A stretch of 9,401 nt of DNA from Bdellovibrionales bacterium (lineage in GTDB: Bacteria; Bdellovibrionota; UBA2428). Numbering within the stretch: position 1 is the stretch's first letter; the number at the start of each line of letters is the position of its first letter. The translations under genes were made by a program, and so were the position numbers. The notes below the pieces were generated by a model. The model did not search any database and was not told the origin of the DNA. It was given only the letters and a program-made list of their open reading frames with translations. Positions 1-9,401 of the stretch are shown in pieces. The stretch is taken from contig JAFEAR010000110.1 in NCBI GenBank assembly GCA_018266335.1, positions 1-9,401 of the forward strand, given 5' to 3'.

Positions 1-176
1 AAGCTGAGAGAATCCGCCCGCGTCGGGAGTTAGCGCGTAGCCTTCGAGTTCATGCATCGCAAGTTAGTGCTCTTGGCGATGCGGGGCGCTGTTTCGTTGC
101 AAGCGAATGTTTTTGGCTGTTGGTGGCGCAATCGGGGCGCGAGAAATGATTGCGGTTATTCGTCTGAGCTCCCAAT

Positions 177-233
177 AAAAATGTGTACTCGGATAATTTT
201 TTAGAAATTTTTAGAGGTTTTTGTGAGATTTTT
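177..233. promoter_or_regulatory. Helically phased A/T-tracts, probable intrinsic DNA bend
   Basis: T-runs lie at 197-202, 208-212, 218-222 and 229-233, with centres about 10.5, 10 and 11 bp apart. This is the helical repeat of B-DNA. An A5 run at 177-181 sits a further two turns upstream. Phased A-tracts of this kind are known to curve DNA and can act as UP elements or as sites for nucleoid proteins. A TTGACG hexamer follows directly at 235-240, but no good -10 lies 16-18 bp beyond it. The phasing is read directly from sequence; the bending and any regulatory role are inferred. Confidence 0.55.
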
Positions 234-309
234 ATTGACGCGATTTTGCGCACTGTAGGCTGTCTGCCATGCGTAAATTGGGCTTTGTTTTTTCAAAAAT
301 AATTCGCGA

Positions 310-342
310 CGCGCAAAAGTTTGCGTGGTGAGGCGCTAGCGC
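310..342. promoter_or_regulatory. Two adjacent dyads, possible operators
   Basis: The first dyad is CGCAAA at 312-317 and TTTGCG at 320-325, separated by two bases and extendable by one wobble and one C-G pair to 310-327. The second is the perfect 10-bp palindrome GCGCTAGCGC at 333-342. Their centres are about 19 bp apart, near two helical turns. Such spacing would suit a dimeric DNA-binding protein, but no regulator gene is adjacent, so operator function is only a guess. Confidence 0.3.
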
Positions 343-403
343 GCTCTGCGTGGCTCTCTAGTTTTTATCTGAGTCGCCATGAAAAAGTGCGTTGAAAAAC
401 TCA

Positions 404-412
404 TGTTATAGA
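404..412 (+). promoter_or_regulatory. Extended -10-like element close to the HNH start
   Basis: TGTTATAGA fits the extended -10 pattern TGnTATAAT at five of the six -10 hexamer positions plus the TG. There is no recognisable -35 about 17 bp upstream. A transcript beginning some 7 bases downstream would start at or next to the ATG at 420, making the mRNA leaderless. This agrees with the absence of a Shine-Dalgarno before that ATG. It is a weak call from one short motif. Confidence 0.3.
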
Positions 413-419
413 ACTCATC

Positions 420-1427
420 ATGAATTCGATTCGTGCACTGAAAGATTCGGAACTTCTCTCTACAACCAAAGAGCTCGTGCAAAAAGAGCGCACGGTTACG
501 ATGGAAGTTTTGCGGCACTTGCAAGAAATTGAGCGGCGCAAGTTGTTTGCGGATCTTAGGTATCCTTCGCTCTTTGAATATGCCGTGCACGAGCTGAGTT
601 ACTCCGAAGCTGCCGCGGGCCGACGCATTCAGGCTATGCGCCTTATGACCGAGCTTCCCGAGGTAGCACCTAAGATTGAATCGGGTGCACTGAGCCTTAG
701 CAACATTTGCCAGGCTCGGAGCTTCTTTCGGGAAATGAATAAGGCGCGGCCCGAAACGGCCTTGAGCCGGGAGCAGAAGACCGAGGTGCTGGCACAGTTA
801 GAAGATAAATCAGCTCGTGAGGGGCAAAGAATTTTGCTTTCCATTAGCCCCACTCACGCACTGCCCCGGGAGCGCGAGCGGATAGTGAGCACTGAGCATT
901 CGGAAGTTAACTTTTTAATGAGCCAAGAACTTAAAACTAGCCTTGGCGAAGTTCGGGCCCTTCTGGGTGAGCGGGGTGCGCAGCTGAGTCTTGCCGCGCT
1001 GGTCGCCGAAATGGCGCGGCTTAGCAAAGAACGGCTCCTTGAGCAGCGCTTTGGCAAAAACCGCGTTAGGCAGACCACAGCAAAAATTGAGAAGTTGGGC
1101 TCCGATCCCATTGAGCTGGATGCGGACAATCAAATTTCATCGCAAATCTCCGCACCGCCAAACTCCGGCACTTCCACTACCGACGTCGGCGAAGCGCTGC
1201 GTCAGCGTACTCGCTACATTCCACGCGCGGTTAAGCACGCGGTTTGGCGCAAGGCAGAGGGCAAATGCGCGCGGTGTGGATCTACGCACCGGCTGAACTT
1301 CGATCACATCCGGCCCTTCGCTCTGGGCGGCGACTCGACCGCCCAAAACATTCAGCTGCTCTGCAGTTCTTGCAACCTTAGGCGGGGGATTCAGTCCTTC
1401 GGGACTCAAACTATGCGGCGCGGGTGA
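420..1427 (+). CDS. HNH endonuclease family protein
   Basis: A 335-residue protein with a C-terminal HNH nuclease domain. The domain shows a CxxC pair (C283, C286), the DH of the active site (D295, H296), a conserved N310 and a second CxxC (C315, C318); the four cysteines probably bind structural zinc around the beta-beta-alpha-metal fold that nicks or cuts DNA. Residues 1-210 are helical and charged, and resemble the N-terminal region of HNH proteins common in Bdellovibrio-like genomes, often in several copies. Residues 212-262 look like a disordered linker. ATG 420 is the first start after an in-frame TGA at 393-395; no Shine-Dalgarno precedes it. The gene stands alone, converging on mscS. 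The target and biological role are unknown; mobile-element homing or defence are both possible. No sign of truncation. Confidence 0.85.
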   Translation: MNSIRALKDSELLSTTKELVQKERTVTMEVLRHLQEIERRKLFADLRYPSLFEYAVHELSYSEAAAGRRIQAMRLMTELPEVAPKIESGALSLSNICQARSFFREMNKARPETALSREQKTEVLAQLEDKSAREGQRILLSISPTHALPRERERIVSTEHSEVNFLMSQELKTSLGEVRALLGERGAQLSLAALVAEMARLSKERLLEQRFGKNRVRQTTAKIEKLGSDPIELDADNQISSQISAPPNSGTSTTDVGEALRQRTRYIPRAVKHAVWRKAEGKCARCGSTHRLNFDHIRPFALGGDSTAQNIQLLCSSCNLRRGIQSFGTQTMRRG

Positions 1428-1435
1428 GTAGCAAG

Positions 1436-1459
1436 GAGGGCGTAAAACCTTACGCCCTT
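1436..1459. terminator. Bidirectional hairpin between convergent genes
   Basis: GGGCGTAA (1438-1445) pairs perfectly with TTACGCCC (1450-1457) across an AACC loop, with an extra A-T pair and a G-T wobble outside. It lies 8 bp after the HNH stop and 4 bp after the mscS stop on the other strand, the right place for a shared terminator. The T-runs on either side are poor (TTGGCTTT on plus, TCCTTG on minus), so it may terminate inefficiently or mainly protect 3' ends. Confidence 0.55.
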
Positions 1460-1463
1460 GGCT

Positions 1464-2513
1464 TTAACTGCTTAAGCTAGGCTTGTTCACAAACTCCAGA
1501 GTTTGGGTGGGGAAGGCGAAGCTGATGCCGCGTTGCTCGAAGCTTTCGAGAATGGCGAATTGGAGTTGTTGCTGGAGGTCGAGCACGTCCTTCATGACTG
1601 GCGCGTTGATGAGCAGCACGACTTCGAAGTTAAGGCTGTAAGCGCCAAATTCTACGAAGTGAGCGCGCTCGCAGGTTACTCCGGGCACTTGGGCGGCGAG
1701 AGATTTGATGAGCTCCGGAATGCTCTGAATCGTTTTAAAGGGCAGTCCATAGACCACGCCCAGACGCAGCGTAATGCGGCGGCTGTTGAATTCGGAAGGC
1801 TTGGTGATGCGAGTTTTGGTGAGGTCCGAGTTGGCCACGATAATCACTTCGCCCGTGTTGGCGCGAATGCGTGTGGTGCGCAGGCCGATGTCCTCTACCT
1901 TGCCCGCCACGTTGTCGAAGCTAACGGCATCGCCCACGTCGAAGGGATGATCCAAATAAATAATGAAGCAGCCAAAGGCATCGCCCAGCAGATTTTGCGC
2001 GGCGAGGGCGATGGCGATACCACCAATACCCAGGCCCGTAAGCAGTGAGCCCACATTGAAGCCCAAGTTGGAGAGCATGAAGAGCACGCCCATGGTCCAA
2101 ATGGCGAATTTAATGATGACGCGCAAGTTCTTAGCGGCATTGCGCAGCGATGGATTGTCTTTAGATCCGCGCATGAGGGACTGCGCAATGAGCACCGATG
2201 CCGAATCGCCCAACAGCAGCATGACCTGCACCCCGATGAGTCCGGTGAAAATAATGCGGAGGGTGATTTCTACTTTTTGGTGCACGTCCACCATGGAGAG
2301 CGTGGCGTAGGCGGCGGCCAAGAAGAGCGTGGAGATGCGAATGCGCTCGACGGTTAAATGAAAGGGGCTATTGCGACGTTTGGCGACGGCAATGAGTTTG
2401 CTGCGAATAAAACTCAGAACCAGGAAAGTGCCAAAGCCAACGGCGATGGCCAAAAAGTAGCGCCAGAGAGGGTTGCCGAGATATTCCGCGTTTAAGAACT
2501 CAAGACTGCTCAT
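1464..2513 (-). CDS. mscS: MscS-family small-conductance mechanosensitive channel
   Basis: A 349-residue inner-membrane channel that would open under membrane tension and release solutes after osmotic downshock. Three N-terminal hydrophobic helices lie near residues 16-38, 58-76 and 83-112. The pore-lining helix follows near 138-190, with the Gly/Ala-rich packing pattern (GLGIGGIAIALAAQNLLGD) typical of MscS TM3. The cytoplasmic beta domain includes GKVEDIG and the IIVANS stretch at 204-229, and an alpha/beta C-terminal domain completes the family layout. The start at 2513 is chosen because its ATGA overlaps the stop of the upstream cheX-like gene, the classic coupling arrangement; an in-frame ATG at 2534 would add seven residues. 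It is the last gene of the cheY-cheX-mscS operon. The symbol denotes the family, not proven orthology. Confidence 0.9.
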   Translation of the reverse strand: MSSLEFLNAEYLGNPLWRYFLAIAVGFGTFLVLSFIRSKLIAVAKRRNSPFHLTVERIRISTLFLAAAYATLSMVDVHQKVEITLRIIFTGLIGVQVMLLLGDSASVLIAQSLMRGSKDNPSLRNAAKNLRVIIKFAIWTMGVLFMLSNLGFNVGSLLTGLGIGGIAIALAAQNLLGDAFGCFIIYLDHPFDVGDAVSFDNVAGKVEDIGLRTTRIRANTGEVIIVANSDLTKTRITKPSEFNSRRITLRLGVVYGLPFKTIQSIPELIKSLAAQVPGVTCERAHFVEFGAYSLNFEVVLLINAPVMKDVLDLQQQLQFAILESFEQRGISFAFPTQTLEFVNKPSLSS

Positions 2514-3394
2514 TGCTTCATACTGATAACGCATTCAACCATGAGTCGTCCATCCGCGCAGTCGAAGGGAATGCAGAAGCAGTGTCCGGTGACGGCGTGA
2601 CGAATTTCGTGACCGGGTCCTGTCACGACGCTCGGAAGGGCGGGGCTAATGGTGTGGCCGGCGGCGTTGAGGTCGCGCTTGGCGTTACCAAAAATAATGT
2701 TGGTCATTTCGGAGACGGCATCTTTGACGTCGTCGTTCACTTCCTTCACGGTCTCGCCCAACATGTTTTCGTAAATTTTGAGCACGAGCGATTTTTGGAA
2801 GCAAATTGCCATCGAACCCACGAAACGATCGGAGTTCATGGCGATGATACCCGAAATGTCGCCAATGGCGCGGGCCGATTCATTGGGTTGGCGCAGGTAG
2901 GGGGTGCCGCGCTTGAGTTCGATCTGGGCCATGGACTTAATCACGTCCACCACGGCACCAATGAGCGGAATCATAAAGCTAGCGTCGACTTTTTTCTTCT
3001 GCTCTGCACCGTCTTCGGTGGTAGAGAAAAACATACCGTTGAGAATAGTGAGCATACCCGCAAGGTCGTCGGGCTTGTCGGTGAACTTAACGTGGTTGTG
3101 CGTGATGACGATTTGCTCGTCCTCAATGTCTTTGCCGAGCACCAGCCAGGGAATGGCTTTTTGTGTTTTCTGCATCTGCGTCCAGTTGAAAAGGTGCGTA
3201 GGGTCGTTCATGGAGGGTTTGCCCGTGCGCAGAATGAAGCAATCGTAGGCTTGGTTCATGGCCCGCTTGATGGCGTCGGCGGGCGAGGTTGTTACGGTGA
3301 GGGATTTAACTACGGGCTGCAGGGCTTCGGCCACCGATTTGGCGAGGGCGGCATCATCACAGAGAAGGAGGAGGCTTTTGTTGGAGAGCGACAT
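2510..3394 (-). CDS. Degenerate receiver domain fused to CheX-type phosphatase
   Basis: A 294-residue cytoplasmic protein. Residues 136-294 match the CheX family of CheY-P phosphatases and keep the catalytic ExxN signature in SEMTN (E229, N232), which in this family positions the water attacking phospho-aspartate. Residues 6-121 have the spacing of a response-regulator receiver: a DD pair (13-14) and a Lys-Pro (K107-P108). However, the phosphoacceptor position in the FILRTGKP strand is arginine (R56), so it cannot be phosphorylated in the normal way. The ATG at 3394 is preferred over an upstream TTG at 3400, because AAGGA sits 8 bases before the ATG and only 2 before the TTG. It lies 11 bp after cheY and overlaps mscS by 4 bp. 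Likely role: dephosphorylating the neighbouring CheY. The pseudo-receiver may dimerise or sense. Confidence 0.82.
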   Translation of the reverse strand: MSLSNKSLLLLCDDAALAKSVAEALQPVVKSLTVTTSPADAIKRAMNQAYDCFILRTGKPSMNDPTHLFNWTQMQKTQKAIPWLVLGKDIEDEQIVITHNHVKFTDKPDDLAGMLTILNGMFFSTTEDGAEQKKKVDASFMIPLIGAVVDVIKSMAQIELKRGTPYLRQPNESARAIGDISGIIAMNSDRFVGSMAICFQKSLVLKIYENMLGETVKEVNDDVKDAVSEMTNIIFGNAKRDLNAAGHTISPALPSVVTGPGHEIRHAVTGHCFCIPFDCADGRLMVECVISMKQ

Positions 3395-3402
3395 GGTCAA
3401 GT

Positions 3403-3407
3403 TCCTT
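3403..3407 (-). promoter_or_regulatory. Shine-Dalgarno of the cheX-like gene, overlapping the cheY stop
   Basis: On the minus strand AAGGA includes the last two bases of the cheY TAA stop and lies 8 bases before the ATG at 3394. It fixes the start choice and implies that ribosomes finishing cheY can reload for cheX. Confidence 0.7.
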
Positions 3408-3810
3408 AGGGGTTGTGCTTCTTGAATACGGCTAAAAGTTTCTCAGCAAAGGTCGACGGGCTGAAAGGTTTAACCACGTAGTTGCTAACGCCCAGCTTGA
3501 CGGCTTCGAGAATGTTTTTGGACTCGGCCTCGGCCGTGACCATCAAAAAGGGCGTGGTTTTGGTGGCCGGATTCTCCCGAACCCGCTTCAGAAACTCAAT
3601 GCCCTGCATTTTGGGCATGTTCCAATCGGAAACGATGAGGCCAAAGGGTTTGCCTTCGGCCGCGGCTTTTTCCACCATAACTACCGCGTCGGCAGCATCC
3701 TCGGCTTCGGTGACGTCCTTGATCCCAACTTGGGCAAGGGCGTTAATGACTAATTTGCGCATGGTCTTAAAGTCATCGCAGACCATGACTTTTGTGGTGG
3801 GTGGAAACAT
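3406..3810 (-). CDS. cheY: CheY-like single-domain response regulator
   Basis: A 134-residue receiver domain with no output domain. All catalytic positions are intact: the acidic pair D12-D13, phosphoacceptor D62 in SDWNMP, T92 in the MVTAEA strand, and K114 in VVKPF. The switch aromatic is Y111, equivalent to Tyr106 of E. coli CheY. It would accept phosphate from a CheA-type kinase and act through protein contact, classically at a flagellar switch. No kinase or flagellar gene is next to it, so the partner is unknown. The start is set by a strong Shine-Dalgarno six bases upstream. It is the first gene of a three-gene operon with the CheX-like phosphatase and mscS. It could be an orphan CheY paralog and not the main chemotaxis CheY. 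Confidence 0.93.
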   Translation of the reverse strand: MFPPTTKVMVCDDFKTMRKLVINALAQVGIKDVTEAEDAADAVVMVEKAAAEGKPFGLIVSDWNMPKMQGIEFLKRVRENPATKTTPFLMVTAEAESKNILEAVKLGVSNYVVKPFSPSTFAEKLLAVFKKHNP

Positions 3811-3816
3811 TCGCGG

Positions 3817-3825
3817 ACCTCCTCC
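3817..3825 (-). promoter_or_regulatory. Strong Shine-Dalgarno of cheY
   Basis: On the minus strand this reads GGAGGAGGT, near-perfect complementarity to the 16S rRNA tail, ending six bases before the ATG at 3810. It is the best ribosome site in the window and suggests that CheY is made in excess of the two downstream products. Confidence 0.8.
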
Positions 3826-3869
3826 AAATAGCTACAGATAAAAGTAACAGGTTTTTGCTTCGCGCAGTA

Positions 3870-3900
3870 GACTTCCGTGCGGGTAAACTCACCCGAAGTC
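3870..3900. promoter_or_regulatory. Bulged hairpin between divergent cheY and hrpB
   Basis: GACTT (3870-3874) pairs with AAGTC (3896-3900) and CGGGT (3880-3884) pairs with ACCCG (3891-3895), around a six-base loop, with CCGTG left as a one-sided bulge. It sits 24 bp before the hrpB GTG and about 60 bp before cheY, within the only place where promoters for both genes can lie. It may be a 5' UTR structure or a protein site. I could not pick convincing -35/-10 pairs on either strand. Confidence 0.35.
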
Positions 3901-3924
3901 GGAGCGCTGTGCTAGAAAGAAGGC

Positions 3925-6468
3925 GTGGCTTCCCCGCGTCTATCCGAGTTGCCTATCGACGAAATTTTGCCGCAAGTGCGCGAGTCTTTGCGTGCGCACC
4001 GCAACCTGGTCTTGGTAGCCGCTCCCGGTGCCGGAAAAACGACGCGTATCCCCCAAATTTTCCTACAGTCGAATGAGAATACAATTTCACATGGCCAAAC
4101 GCTCCTCCTGCAACCGCGTCGCATTGCTGTGCGTAGCTCGGCCCGCAGAATTGCGTGGGAAACCGGAGTGACGCTGGGCGAAGAAGTGGGTTTTCAGGTT
4201 CGCTTTGAAAATCAATCTTCCGCGCGCACTCGATTGAAAGTGATCACCGAAGGAATTTTGACACGTCAGTTACAGTCCGACCCCACTTTGGCGGGGGTGG
4301 GTACGGTCATTCTGGATGAATTTCACGAACGCAGTTTGCATACGGACCTAGCGCTTGCGCTGCTACGCGAATTGCAACAGAGCTTGCGCGAGGATTTGCG
4401 CATTATTGTCATGTCGGCCACGCTCGATGCGGCTTCCGTGGCGCAATTTTTGGGCGATTGCCCCATTATTGAGTCGGCGGGGCGCGCGTTTCCGGTCCAG
4501 GTAAGTTATCGTCCCCGGAGCTCGGTCTGGTCTGATACCCGGACACTTGAAGATGACGTTTTGGCTGCCGTGTTAGGTCTGACCACCGCCGCGGACGACG
4601 ACGGAGGACATGTCATCGTTTTTTTGCCTGGGACCGGCGAGATTGCGCGCGTGGAGCGTCGATTGGCTTCGGTGGCGGTTGCCAAACAGTGGGCGGTATT
4701 GCCCTTGCATGGTTCTCTCAGTAGCGATGAGCAGGATCGGGTGCTCGGGCCGCTCTTAGCCCCGTTCACGCGCAAAATTATTCTGGCCACGAATATCGCT
4801 GAGACTTCGCTCACCATCGATGGCGTGAACGGCGTGGTGGATTCAGGATTGGCGCGGGTCATGCGCTGCGATCCGAAATTCGGTTTGGAGCGCTTGGAAC
4901 TCGCGCGTATTTCGGCGGCCTCCAGCACGCAGCGGGCTGGCCGTGCCGGGCGGCAGCGCCCTGGTCGCTGCGTGCGCCTGTGGAGTGCCCACGAGCAGGC
5001 CCAGTTGCGAGAGTTCGAAGCCCCCGAAATTGCGCGGGTGGATTTGACCGCAACTTGCCTGGCGCTGGCGGAGTGGGGCGTAAGTGACTTTGCTAACTTT
5101 GGCTGGTTCGAAGCTCCGCCCGCGGCTCAGTTAGATTCAGCGCTCGCATTGCTCCGGCGTTTGCGCGCGATTGATTCCGATGGACGTATCAGCACTACCG
5201 GGCGCGATATTCTCGGCTTTCCTGTTCATCCACGTCTAGGCCGCTTGTTGGCTCTCGCGACGTCGTCCCGTGATCCTGCGCACTGGCAAGAAGCGGCGAG
5301 CATTGCGGCCTTGCTCAGCGAGCGCGATGTTCTCAAACCGCGTGATGAATCTGCCCATGCCTCGGGAGAGTCAGATTTGGACGAGCGATTAGATTTGTTA
5401 CGGCGGGGAGCGGCGCGTTCGATTGCGATGGTGCGCGATGCGCTTGTATCATTGGTTCGTGCCCAGAGCGGTGTTCGACGGCCCGAGGCAAATTTTTCGT
5501 GGGACGCTGTGGACGCACTCTGTTTGTCCTTTCCTGATCGCGTGACTCGCCGGCGGGCGGCGGGAAGTCCGAAAGGCGTGATGGTAGGGGGACGGGGCAT
5601 CACTCTAGCGGCGGCGTCGGTGGTGCGTGATGCGCCACTTTTTTTGAGTCTCGATCCTCAGGAGCAACGTCGGGACGGAAAACTAGAAGCACAAACAAAT
5701 TTGGCGGTGCAAATTTCGGTGGATCGCTTGCGGCGATTATTTCCGGATCGAGTGGAAGAGCGAACGGAGGCACGGCTCGATGAGGCTCGCGGCACCGCGA
5801 CGGGTTGGCGTGCTCTCTATTTCGAAGACCTCGCGCTGACCGATCCTGTGCCCGTTGCTCTGGCCGCAGGTCAAAAGCAGGAACTGATGCGTGAGTCTTT
5901 GCTGCGCGCGCCCCGTAGTTTCTTTGCGGAAGATGAAGGTGCGGCGGCCTGGCTGCGGCGTTACGAGTTCTTGCGGCGTTGGCTACCCGAGTTGGAGTGG
6001 CCGGAGTTGAGCGATTCGTTTTTGACTCAGGTGCTGAGTGCATTGCTCGATGAGGGGACCATGGCGAACATGAGCTCGGCAGCTAAAGTGGAGGCCCTCG
6101 AGCAACACCTGGATTACAAAATTCGCCAGCTGCTGCGCGAGGAAGCGCCCGAATCGCTCGTGGTGCCCAGTGGGAGCCGTATCCGCTTGCAATACGACGC
6201 GCAGGGGGAAGTAAGCATGGCGGTGCGTCTGCAGGAAATTTTTGGCTGGACCGAAACTCCGCGTCTCGCGCGCGGCCGTGCGCCCGTGGGCCTAGAACTG
6301 TTGGGTCCTAACTTTCGGCCGGTGCAAATCACCCGCGATTTGGTCAGCTTTTGGAGCCGGGGGTATCCCGAAGTTCGCAAGGAATTGCGGGCAAAATATC
6401 CGCGCCACAGTTGGCCCGACAATCCTTTGACGGCTAAACCCGAAGCCAAGGGGCGGCGTAGAAATTAG
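3925..6468 (+). CDS. hrpB: ATP-dependent helicase HrpB (DEAH/RHA family)
   Basis: An 847-residue superfamily 2 helicase, close to the roughly 810 residues of E. coli HrpB. In order: Walker A APGAGKTT (33-40), motif II DEFHER (131-136), motif III SAT (164-166), motif V with ATNIAETSLTIDG (288-300), and motif VI QRAGRAGR (336-343). The C-terminal HrpB-specific region contains the VRLQEIFGWTETPR block and the terminal DLVSFW...YPEVRKELRAKYPRHSWPDNP-type ending that distinguishes HrpB from HrpA. It should couple ATP hydrolysis to remodelling of RNA or RNA-protein complexes; its natural substrate in bacteria is not well established. The GTG at 3925 is used because a TAG stop lies in frame at 3913-3915, and family members begin similarly just before LPIDEILP. 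The purine run AGAAAGAAGG precedes it. It is transcribed alone and divergent from cheY. Confidence 0.95.
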   Translation: MASPRLSELPIDEILPQVRESLRAHRNLVLVAAPGAGKTTRIPQIFLQSNENTISHGQTLLLQPRRIAVRSSARRIAWETGVTLGEEVGFQVRFENQSSARTRLKVITEGILTRQLQSDPTLAGVGTVILDEFHERSLHTDLALALLRELQQSLREDLRIIVMSATLDAASVAQFLGDCPIIESAGRAFPVQVSYRPRSSVWSDTRTLEDDVLAAVLGLTTAADDDGGHVIVFLPGTGEIARVERRLASVAVAKQWAVLPLHGSLSSDEQDRVLGPLLAPFTRKIILATNIAETSLTIDGVNGVVDSGLARVMRCDPKFGLERLELARISAASSTQRAGRAGRQRPGRCVRLWSAHEQAQLREFEAPEIARVDLTATCLALAEWGVSDFANFGWFEAPPAAQLDSALALLRRLRAIDSDGRISTTGRDILGFPVHPRLGRLLALATSSRDPAHWQEAASIAALLSERDVLKPRDESAHASGESDLDERLDLLRRGAARSIAMVRDALVSLVRAQSGVRRPEANFSWDAVDALCLSFPDRVTRRRAAGSPKGVMVGGRGITLAAASVVRDAPLFLSLDPQEQRRDGKLEAQTNLAVQISVDRLRRLFPDRVEERTEARLDEARGTATGWRALYFEDLALTDPVPVALAAGQKQELMRESLLRAPRSFFAEDEGAAAWLRRYEFLRRWLPELEWPELSDSFLTQVLSALLDEGTMANMSSAAKVEALEQHLDYKIRQLLREEAPESLVVPSGSRIRLQYDAQGEVSMAVRLQEIFGWTETPRLARGRAPVGLELLGPNFRPVQITRDLVSFWSRGYPEVRKELRAKYPRHSWPDNPLTAKPEAKGRRRN

Positions 6469-6594
6469 TCAGAGTTGAGTTGTATCAGTCGCTTGACTCG
6501 CTGCGTGTTAAACGAGTTTTCCTGAGCTAAGTCCCAGAAAAAAAAGATCTCAAACCCCCTCAACTCATTTCAAAAGTTGGCCGATGAGTTCTGC
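6469..6594. other. hrpB to lipoprotein intergenic region
   Basis: These 126 bases should hold the end of the hrpB transcript and a promoter for the envelope operon. A short hairpin (ACTCG 6496-6500, CGAGT 6513-6517) runs into TTTT at 6517-6520 and may be a weak terminator. Perfect 8-base inverted arms GAGTTGAG (6472-6479) and CTCAACTC (6559-6566) enclose most of the region. A TTGACT hexamer at 6493-6498 resembles a -35 but has no partner -10 at normal spacing. An A8 run lies at 6538-6545. Confidence 0.4.
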
Positions 6595-7299
6595 ATGACC
6601 GGGACTACACACCTATCTTTCTCCACGATTGGCAAGGCGCTTGCGCTCTTGATGTTGTCGGCGTGCGCCTCGAAAAGTGTGGAACTGGTCTCCGAACCCG
6701 CTGGCGCCGAAGTACAAACGGTGAACGGTGAAGTGCTAGGGAACACGCCGCTCGTACTTAAAGACGACGTGCTCCAAAAGACAACTTCTAGTGACGGACT
6801 TCTTTCGGTGCGCTTCGTGGGTCCGGGTTACCTGCCGCAAACTCTATTAGTTGAAGTGCGCGGGGCGGACACTTACCGGGTCCAACTCGTCAAACTCGAC
6901 GAAACTTTCTTCCGTAAATATATCCTTCGCGATTTCTCGACCGAGCACAACGCGTTGGTGCGCGACATCCTCAACATTCAGGCCATGATGCGCGCTAAGA
7001 AATATGACGAGGCCGAAAAGGCGCTCGTAGTTTTTCAGCAGCGCTTTCCGACCATTGCGGTGGCGCAAGTTATGATGGCTAACCTGCAACTCGTGCGCGG
7101 CGATCGTGTTGCCGCTCGTCGTTATCTTTTGCAAGCGCAAGCTCTGGATCCCACGGATCCCGTAGTGTCGCGCATGCTGGGTTCGACCAACGAAGCCCGG
7201 GGCATGGTCCTCGAGAAAAAAGCCTCAGCGGAAGAAAGCAAGCCCGTTCTACCTAAGGCGCTTGCTAATCCGCAGAACGACACGAAGGCGGACGAGTGA
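6595..7299 (+). CDS. Lipoprotein with PEGA-like and TPR-like regions
   Basis: A 234-residue predicted lipoprotein. A short hydrophobic signal ends in the lipobox LSAC, so C24 would be lipidated; the next residue is Ala, not Asp, which in Lol-sorting logic favours the outer membrane. Residues 29-100 resemble a PEGA domain (VELVSEPAGAEVQ, then GNTPLVL and a GYLPQTLLVEV strand), a small beta fold common in surface or envelope proteins. Residues 119-192 form two TPR-like helical pairs (KKYDEAEKALVVFQQRFP, then GDRVAARRYLLQAQALDP), a protein-binding module. The tail from 207 is charged and probably disordered. ATG 6595 is preferred over an in-frame TTG at 6577, which has no Shine-Dalgarno and would add a charged N-terminus. 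Its TGA shares one base with the next ATG, so the two are probably coupled. A likely periplasmic partner of the FliF/FliG-like protein. Confidence 0.8.
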   Translation: MTGTTHLSFSTIGKALALLMLSACASKSVELVSEPAGAEVQTVNGEVLGNTPLVLKDDVLQKTTSSDGLLSVRFVGPGYLPQTLLVEVRGADTYRVQLVKLDETFFRKYILRDFSTEHNALVRDILNIQAMMRAKKYDEAEKALVVFQQRFPTIAVAQVMMANLQLVRGDRVAARRYLLQAQALDPTDPVVSRMLGSTNEARGMVLEKKASAEESKPVLPKALANPQNDTKADE

Positions 7300-9161
7300 T
7301 GAAGACCAAATTCTCACTACTCCTAACTCTGGCCTTATCCTTCGTTGGTTTCGCTGCGCATGCGCAGGTAGAAGTCAGCACCGAAGCCGAGCAGCTCAAG
7401 CAGTCCATTGAAGGCAAGATTCAACGCACCCTCGACACCTACCTGGGTGGAAAGTCCAAAGTGATTGTGAACGTTCGCTTCCGGGCGCCCACCGCCAAGG
7501 AAGATGATGCCGTCGCTAATATCGATACCTGGATGGACCTAGGTTACGTCACGGCACCGAATGAAGGCGTGGCAAGCAACAAGATTCGCTTTAAAGCTGC
7601 CGAAGTAGATATTCGCGTGTCCGATCAATTGGACGATGCGACGGTGCAGCAAATTCAGTTGCTCGCGAATAACGCTCTCGACGGAATGAATCCCGATGTA
7701 AAAATTTCGCGCGTGGCCTTTTTGGAACCGGACGCCTTACAGGCGGCGAATGGCGCAACGCCCGGCAAAGCTGCTGACCGTACACCGGCTTCCGTAACGC
7801 CCGAAGAACCCAAGTCCGAAGTGAGTGTCTTTGAAAAGCTCATCCAAAAATACGGCGCGCTGATTCCGCTCGCTGCGGCCCTGGTGTTGGGCCTGGGTCT
7901 GCTCCTCTCCTCGTCCATCGCTTCCACCGTTATTTCGCGCTCTGCGGGCGAAATCGCGGCGGGCATTCGCTCCATGCGTGCGACCGTAAGTTCGAACCCC
8001 GAAAAGCCGCTCACGGTAGCGGCTCCCCTGGGCCTCGATATAAAATCTAGTGAAGTGAGTGCGGCGAAAGCGCCGCCCGTGGCGCCGCGCCTGCGGGAGC
8101 ACTTTAAGAATCTCGCCTTCGTGAAGAAGACGCTCCTTGAAAATCCTCTCGCTTTTGTGCGCGTCCTCGGTGATTCCCCGGAAGATCAGCGCGGGCTTAA
8201 GTGGTTGCTGGCGAATTTGGACGACGCCGAGCGGGCATCGCTTAAGTCGGTGCTCGGGCGCGAACGTATTCTAACGCTCACCCAGGCCATCAACGTGGAG
8301 GGTCCGTGGGATCCGGCTTCGTGGTTGCAGGGCACTGTAGAGAACGCCGTGCTGCGCGAAGTTGCCGGCACTTCTGTGGTGGAGCGGGCGCTCGAAGGCG
8401 ATCAAGCTTTCCGTTTGTCCATGGCCCCCGTGGAAGATCTGTTCCAAGCGGTCGAGGAATCTAATGATCCTGCCTCCTGGCGCGTAGCGCTGGAGTTCTT
8501 GCCGCGCGAAAAAATTGGTGTCGTGCTGCGTGCGAGCGATAGTTCCGTGTGGCAGCGCATGTTGGCGGGCTCGGATTTGGACCGCGATGCTTTACGCCAG
8601 GCTGCGGGCCGCATCTTAGACCGCGTGGGCCAGAACGCCCGCGATCCGCGCACGGCCGTGCAGGCCGAAGATAAGCGTCGCTTCTACGCGAACATTTTGC
8701 TCGATCCCGCAATCGATTCGATTCTCGCTAAGACTCTGGGCGAAGACGATCAGTTCCTGGACGACCTTGCGACCATGGCACCCGATTTCGTAGCCTTGCT
8801 CCGCACGAAGGTGTGGACGCCGCGGAGCTTAGATGCCGTGGATCATGAAGCATTGCGCGAAGCTTTCTTGCCGCTCAGCCCGGCCCAAAAAATGTCCGTT
8901 ATGCTGGCTCTACCGGCAACCGTATCGCAACGCTTTGAAGATTTTCTTCCCGAGGGAACCGGCCGTACGATCGTGCTCGATCAATTGCGCCGCGCACGCG
9001 AACGGCAAGACTTGCAGGAGTTCGATGCGGCTACTCGTTTGGCGCGCGAATTCCTGGATTACCTCCGCAAGCAAGCTGACTCCGGTCGCTTGGCGCTGAG
9101 GAAGGCCTCCACCGAGCTTCCTCCCGTTAGCGGCGAGGGAGACGAAGAGCAGGCGGCGTGA
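7299..9161 (+). CDS. FliF-like periplasmic domain fused to FliG-like cytoplasmic domain
   Basis: A 620-residue protein with a signal peptide (MKTKF, hydrophobic core, predicted cleavage after AHA at residue 22). Residues 28-143 follow the last ring-building domain of FliF: an SIEGKIQRTLDTYLG helix, a VIVNVRF strand, a short variable insert, an AEVDIRV strand, then a helix ending in VKISRVAF. A Pro/Ala linker (144-175) leads to one membrane segment (about 186-210). The cytoplasmic part resembles FliG: an N-like helical region (268-335), a middle ARMC-like module (375-445), and a C-terminal module (465-600) ending in ARLAREFLDYLRKQADSGRL in the manner of FliG's RRLEEEGEI end. The FliM-contact EHPQ position reads NDPA (389-392). 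The start is ATG 7299, overlapping the lipoprotein stop; a GTG three bases upstream is possible. It may form an inner-membrane ring or motor scaffold; function unproven. Homology is from pattern only. Confidence 0.72.
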   Translation: MKTKFSLLLTLALSFVGFAAHAQVEVSTEAEQLKQSIEGKIQRTLDTYLGGKSKVIVNVRFRAPTAKEDDAVANIDTWMDLGYVTAPNEGVASNKIRFKAAEVDIRVSDQLDDATVQQIQLLANNALDGMNPDVKISRVAFLEPDALQAANGATPGKAADRTPASVTPEEPKSEVSVFEKLIQKYGALIPLAAALVLGLGLLLSSSIASTVISRSAGEIAAGIRSMRATVSSNPEKPLTVAAPLGLDIKSSEVSAAKAPPVAPRLREHFKNLAFVKKTLLENPLAFVRVLGDSPEDQRGLKWLLANLDDAERASLKSVLGRERILTLTQAINVEGPWDPASWLQGTVENAVLREVAGTSVVERALEGDQAFRLSMAPVEDLFQAVEESNDPASWRVALEFLPREKIGVVLRASDSSVWQRMLAGSDLDRDALRQAAGRILDRVGQNARDPRTAVQAEDKRRFYANILLDPAIDSILAKTLGEDDQFLDDLATMAPDFVALLRTKVWTPRSLDAVDHEALREAFLPLSPAQKMSVMLALPATVSQRFEDFLPEGTGRTIVLDQLRRARERQDLQEFDAATRLAREFLDYLRKQADSGRLALRKASTELPPVSGEGDEEQAA

Positions 9162-9169
9162 GGCAAGAC

Positions 9170-9401
9170 ATGAGACTGGGATTGCCGCTCATTTTGGCTG
9201 CGGTGTTGGCACCGGCCCTGGCCCGCGCGGACGAGGAACAAGCCACTGTACGCAATGCACCCAAACTCGTTTTGCGTACGAGTACCGGCATTTTTACTAA
9301 CCGTGGCAGTCGTAAAACAAAAACGGCCACGAGCTTCGGTGGTTTCAACATCGGTATGCACTACTTCCTAACGCCGGCTCTCTCGGCGGGCCTTTTCTAT
9401 A
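9170..9401 (+). CDS. Secreted, probable outer-membrane beta-barrel protein (partial, 3' end beyond window)
   Basis: The first 77 codons are present and the frame stays open to the edge. A signal peptide is clear: MRLG, a hydrophobic core, and a predicted cut after ARA near residue 20. The mature start is DEEQAT. The visible mature part has short stretches of alternating polarity with aromatic ends (KLVLRTSTGIF, then GGFNIGMHYFL and LSAGLFY), separated by a polar loop (TNRGSRKTKTAT). This is like the first strands of an OmpA/OmpW-type barrel. ATG 9170 has GAGG six bases upstream, overlapping the previous TGA; the gap to the FliF/FliG-like gene is 8 bp, so it is the same operon. The family cannot be named from this fragment. 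It would be the outer-membrane member of the complex. Confidence 0.7.
   Translation, partial: MRLGLPLILAAVLAPALARADEEQATVRNAPKLVLRTSTGIFTNRGSRKTKTATSFGGFNIGMHYFLTPALSAGLFY

Follow-up and report, generated by a model that had tools for sequence, protein, structure and literature searches.

A stretch of 9,401 nucleotides from a Bdellovibrionales bacterium (contig JAFEAR010000110.1 of assembly GCA_018266335.1, positions 1 to 9,401; hereafter the window) carries a gene at 7299..9161 on the forward strand whose product joins, in a single chain, a periplasmic ring domain of the FliF type, one membrane helix and a cytoplasmic part of the FliG type. FliF and FliG are mostly viewed as parts that have a meaning inside the flagellum. 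Here a piece of FliF and FliG stand in one protein, whose gene has no flagellar construction genes as neighbours; the product may therefore form a small membrane ring that does not belong to a flagellum. Our preferred reading, to which we give a probability of about 0.55, is that of a non-flagellar inner-membrane ring subunit composed of parts of the MS-ring and C-ring type and joined with a lipoprotein and a probable barrel across the envelope.

Layout of the chain

The open reading frame runs from GTG 7296 or ATG 7299 to the stop at 9161, giving 621 or 620 amino acids. Residue numbers are counted here from GTG 7296; the database copy of the protein (P0003) starts at ATG 7299. A signal peptide (7299..7364), likely cleaved after AHA, is indicated by a hydropathy peak and an alanine at -1. 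Both the hydrophobic N-terminus and this alanine recur in 6/6 aligned sequences, as judged by hydropathy and alignment. About 160 residues, with one folded domain in the structure model, lead from the signal peptide to a single membrane helix (residues about 187-210; 7854..7925), the hydropathy of which is 2.25-2.52 in all six members. The approximately 400 residues that follow are modelled mostly as helices. The initial annotation, made from the letters of the sequence, had described the gene as encoding a signal peptide, one ring domain, one membrane helix and about 400 cytoplasmic residues, and the open reading frame and the comparisons given here agree with it. The topology is supported as far as hydropathy goes.

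A ring-building domain of the FliF type

The periplasmic domain (7380..7730) was compared with the ring-building (RBM) domains of FliF by aligning hidden Markov models (HMM-HMM). Residues 25-150 match the RBM3 profile at P 1.5e-5 when the collar columns are left out, the reversed query giving 0.16. Over six choices of collar bounds P spans 1.5e-5 to 4.3e-3, the last value being that with the collar left in. RBM2 is also matched (P 4.5e-4; reversed 0.086), and the RBM1 profile is not (P 0.55). When blocks of four columns were shuffled, neither the RBM3 nor the RBM2 score was reached in 200 attempts each. At the level of sequence, the periplasmic domain matches an RBM3-type ring domain and would be the counterpart of the one in FliF.

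In the model this domain has the order helix-strand-strand-helix, its last strand being brief or not assigned. Between the first two strands, as placed by the model secondary structure and the alignments, lies a stretch of about 37 residues (7485..7595) containing a conserved W-x-DL-x-YV. It stands at the site of the collar insertion in FliF RBM3, and we infer that the two are equivalent. The likeness to FliF thus consists of an RBM3-type domain that carries an insert between strands one and two and is followed by a membrane helix. The differences are considerable. FliF has three periplasmic RBM domains and two membrane helices, whereas the fusion protein has a single RBM, no RBM1 match and one helix, a signal peptide with predicted cleavage replacing the N-terminal anchor helix. 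It also has a short insert in place of the collar, and a FliG-type part is attached.

The tail of FliF, which binds FliG, was sought as a profile in residues 262-360; the match, at residues 273-290, remained at P 0.09. The same residues (8112-8165, forward strand), which include an invariant ENPL, look by eye like the EHPQ region of FliG M as well as like the FliF tail, a likeness that is not significant.

A cytoplasmic part of the FliG type

The C-terminal end of the protein resembles FliG_C, and a FliG_C-like domain can be placed at residues 484-606 (8745..9113). The Pfam FliG_C model finds three of the six members at the same place (E 2.3e-4, 3.3e-3 and 0.013), from profile position 2 or 3 to 108 of 108. 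These matches all lie under the curated cut-off of 23.3 bits, the best at 21.8 bits, and the model finds no match in the window protein, P0007 or P0008. In HMM-HMM alignment residues 455-606 match FliG 190-331 at P 7.4e-4 (reversed 0.34), with a score that 0/200 shuffles reach, the best of them coming close (25.3 vs 26.8). FliG ranks first in Foldseek for both structure models, and the five best rows for the cytoplasmic model are all FliG, the best at E 0.1. Residues 262-452 (8079..8651), also helical, are FliG-like by fold according to the Foldseek and VIA rows, the sequence tests being weak. The likeness to FliG accordingly comprises the FliG_C-type domain at the C-terminus and a helical cytoplasmic part of similar length. 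In contrast to FliG, this part is covalently attached to a membrane ring domain, and EHPQ, MFxF and most torque charges are, by alignment, not kept. Searched directly against Pfam, NCBIfam, PADLOC and PDB sequences, the window protein yielded no usable match, and neither an NCBIfam search of the six members nor a Pfam search of three cut pieces of the window protein, including the FliG_C-like piece, gave one.

Several results weigh against the assignment to FliG. Residues 262-606 do not match whole FliG significantly, 7/120 shuffles attaining the score, and by sequence neither the N nor the M module finds a match of its own. A reversed control reaches P 0.0084 against FliG N and so beats the forward match (0.082), and for the sub-segment 505-606 FliG N (P 0.0019) is a closer match than FliG C (0.036), a cross-matching that helical repeats may produce. 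Against FliG N or M, residues 262-360 and 361-452 gave nothing above the reversed controls, and the profile-based assignment of these modules was dropped; the Foldseek rows span the whole cytoplasmic model. VIA places residues 259-358 on FliG M and the profiles place residues 392-604 on FliG 127-326, and as these placements differ the register of the helical repeats is uncertain. The layout as FliG N, M and C modules proposed in the initial annotation stands for C, found by FliG_C in half of the members, and is not supported by sequence for N and M. Its broader claim, that a membrane-proximal FliF ring domain and a FliG-type end share one chain, agrees with the RBM3 profile, Pfam FliG_C and Foldseek. 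The predicted fold, on which it had staked that claim, does resemble FliF or FliG, yet none of the Foldseek rows attained E 0.001.

Chance could also produce such a likeness, if a generic alpha/beta domain were combined with a generic helical repeat and neither descended from FliF or FliG. The single matches are weak, an OsmC-fold row equals FliF in Z in the structure comparison, the comparison with whole FliG lies within shuffle noise and the reversed segment does well against FliG N. We hold chance resemblance to be very improbable, however, given that FliG_C recurs in the same place in three of six members over nearly the full model, that FliG comes first in Foldseek for both models, that no shuffle reaches the RBM3 score and that both halves independently indicate the same machine.

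A conserved surface aligned with few of the torque charges

Three features of FliG were followed through the alignments: EHPQ, which we take to be the contact with FliM; MFxF, presumably the hinge; and the torque charges, assumed to be K264, R281, D288, D289 and R297 in Escherichia coli FliG. EHPQ is not kept. With the E. coli protein as master, P127 and Q128 are aligned with P392 and A393 and the E and H lie outside the alignment; with the Aeromonas master the motif falls on NDPA. By eye, the invariant ENPL at 282-285 is an alternative counterpart. MFxF is not kept either, MFLF aligning with an invariant VWTP in an uncertain register. The same uncertainty attends the torque charges, of which one in five is kept (D288, on the invariant D562), and the alignment of R297 to an invariant D.

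The conservation scan and residue map nevertheless bring the most conserved part of the protein to this site. The 12-residue stretches starting at 552-554 have a mean pairwise identity of 0.97, the highest in the protein, and residues 552-569 (8949..9002) align to the FliG torque helix. As the most conserved stretch sits at the torque-helix site although most of the charges are, by alignment, not kept, the surface appears to have been kept but rebuilt. Judged from the alignment, the site looks kept as a contact surface, and it may have been rebuilt for another partner.

That position would also suit a powered rotor, in which stators of the MotAB, TolQR or ExbBD type push the FliG_C surface, turn the ring and move the lipoprotein and barrel. 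We consider such a rotor unlikely, since D288 alone of the five charges is kept and R297 falls on an invariant D, both in an uncertain register, and the scan of the eight window proteins gave no match of the stator type. Bolder, and rather doubtful, is a rotary ring machine that stands by itself. Its membrane ring would be a homo-oligomer combining MS-ring and C-ring functions in one polypeptide, the remodelled FliG_C surface of which would engage a stator and drive a complex facing the outer membrane and peptidoglycan (the lipoprotein plus the barrel) with neither export apparatus nor filament.

Known fusions and ring proteins

Engineered FliF-FliG fusions exist. The ring proteins SctJ of the injectisome and SpoIIIAG of sporulation are not known to carry a FliG-type part, and SctJ has a lipoprotein signal and two RBMs before its membrane helix.

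The initial annotation held that no named system had this shape, which was overstated. According to the published description (Bergeron 2016; PMC4768692), the Chlamydiaceae, bacteria not thought to be flagellated, have a natural FliF-FliG fusion. This FliF of ~330 amino acids has two membrane helices, one domain like RBM2 and another that is RBM-like; its cytoplasmic part is a homologue of FliG M. Each is a naturally occurring single chain that links a ring part of the FliF type to a cytoplasmic domain of the FliG type, and the present family and the Chlamydiaceae fusion are the same kind of thing, a class already known. The layout differs. Set against that description, the protein studied here has 620 amino acids, a signal peptide, one membrane helix and one RBM3-type domain, and it ends in a FliG_C-type domain, whereas the Chlamydiaceae protein is described as keeping the FliG M region.

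Gene neighbourhood

Directly upstream on the same strand lies a lipoprotein gene (6595..7299), recognized by eye from the lipobox LSAC and showing weak PEGA and TPR matches below the Pfam cut-offs; its stop codon shares one base with the ATG of the fusion gene. The downstream gene (9170..9401, forward strand), which is cut by the window end, begins 8 bases past the fusion gene, or at a GTG at 9158 that overlaps it. It encodes a signal peptide and then a strand-like pattern, its 81 residues have no Pfam match, and by eye the product is a probable outer-membrane barrel. The remaining scanned window genes encode an HNH endonuclease, MscS, a CheX-domain protein, CheY and HrpB. None of the eight window proteins scanned is a structural component of the flagellum, in agreement with the initial annotation, which had suggested a ring that could act outside the flagellum.

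On the reverse strand, 2510-3810 holds the CheY-like response regulator, which scores 124 bits with the CheY model and so stays below the model's cut-off of 189, and after it the protein with a C-terminal CheX domain. The latter is likely the phosphatase of the adjoining chemotaxis regulator and has a weak FliY match (E 0.038). The HNH endonuclease (420-1427, forward strand) has an extended N-terminal part and matches IscB, type II restriction and PtuB models weakly.

These chemotaxis genes bear on another explanation, an accessory ring of the flagellar motor, according to which the protein would sit at the flagellar base of a flagellated host and reinforce or anchor the motor rather than make up a machine of its own. 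Accessory periplasmic rings of motors are known, the E-ring and FlgV among them, and chemotaxis is probable in the host, as CheY-like and CheX-domain genes lie on the opposite strand at a distance of 3.5-4.8 kb. However, those genes are oppositely oriented and separated from the fusion gene by hrpB and the lipoprotein gene, the scanned proteins of the window include no flagellar structural component and the FliM-contact motif is not kept in the alignments. An accessory ring seems to us improbable.

Distribution of the family

Searches of 5.8 billion clustered proteins yielded, besides the window protein, six relatives, which are 47-52% identical to it in the search's own alignment. Widening the family in the same collection with an alignment query and with residues 458-602 gave no additional members. 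The protein searches score only candidates with shared short exact words, and two of them only the 7995 sharing most words. There was no relative in short-peptide-pattern scans of 84,980 species genomes, patterns that distant relatives could escape, in a pattern scan of viral contigs or in a tblastn search of plasmids. The family is rare in searchable data. The six-row alignment omits P0009, a partial near-copy of P0004, which is included in the alignments behind both structure models. Apart from a short internal piece that it lacks and a C-terminus of its own, P0009 is almost the same as P0004; the differences are perhaps an artefact of assembly or frame.

A proposed ring outside the flagellum

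Starting from the observed domain resemblances and gene order, a non-flagellar membrane ring might be assembled as follows. The exported N-terminus would fold into one RBM3-type domain, and such domains would pack side by side to form a periplasmic ring. The single membrane helix would lead to the FliG-type cytoplasmic part and thereby to a second ring, with the very conserved FliG_C surface docking a partner. The gene group also encodes the lipoprotein with its PEGA and TPR matches and the probable outer-membrane barrel. Both are likely envelope partners, and together with the ring they would form a structure across the envelope, outside the flagellum. Such a structure might rotate, or might transmit force or conformation and so couple cytoplasm and periplasm.

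If this is true, a protein that unites both parts in one chain and has only one ring domain would bear on how parts of the MS-ring and C-ring work at equal subunit numbers, and it would offer a simple ring for structural work. The present family retains the FliG_C-type end, the part that meets the stator in flagella, while the Chlamydiaceae fusion is described as retaining FliG M. The one-chain version would let the roles of rotor parts outside flagella be asked.
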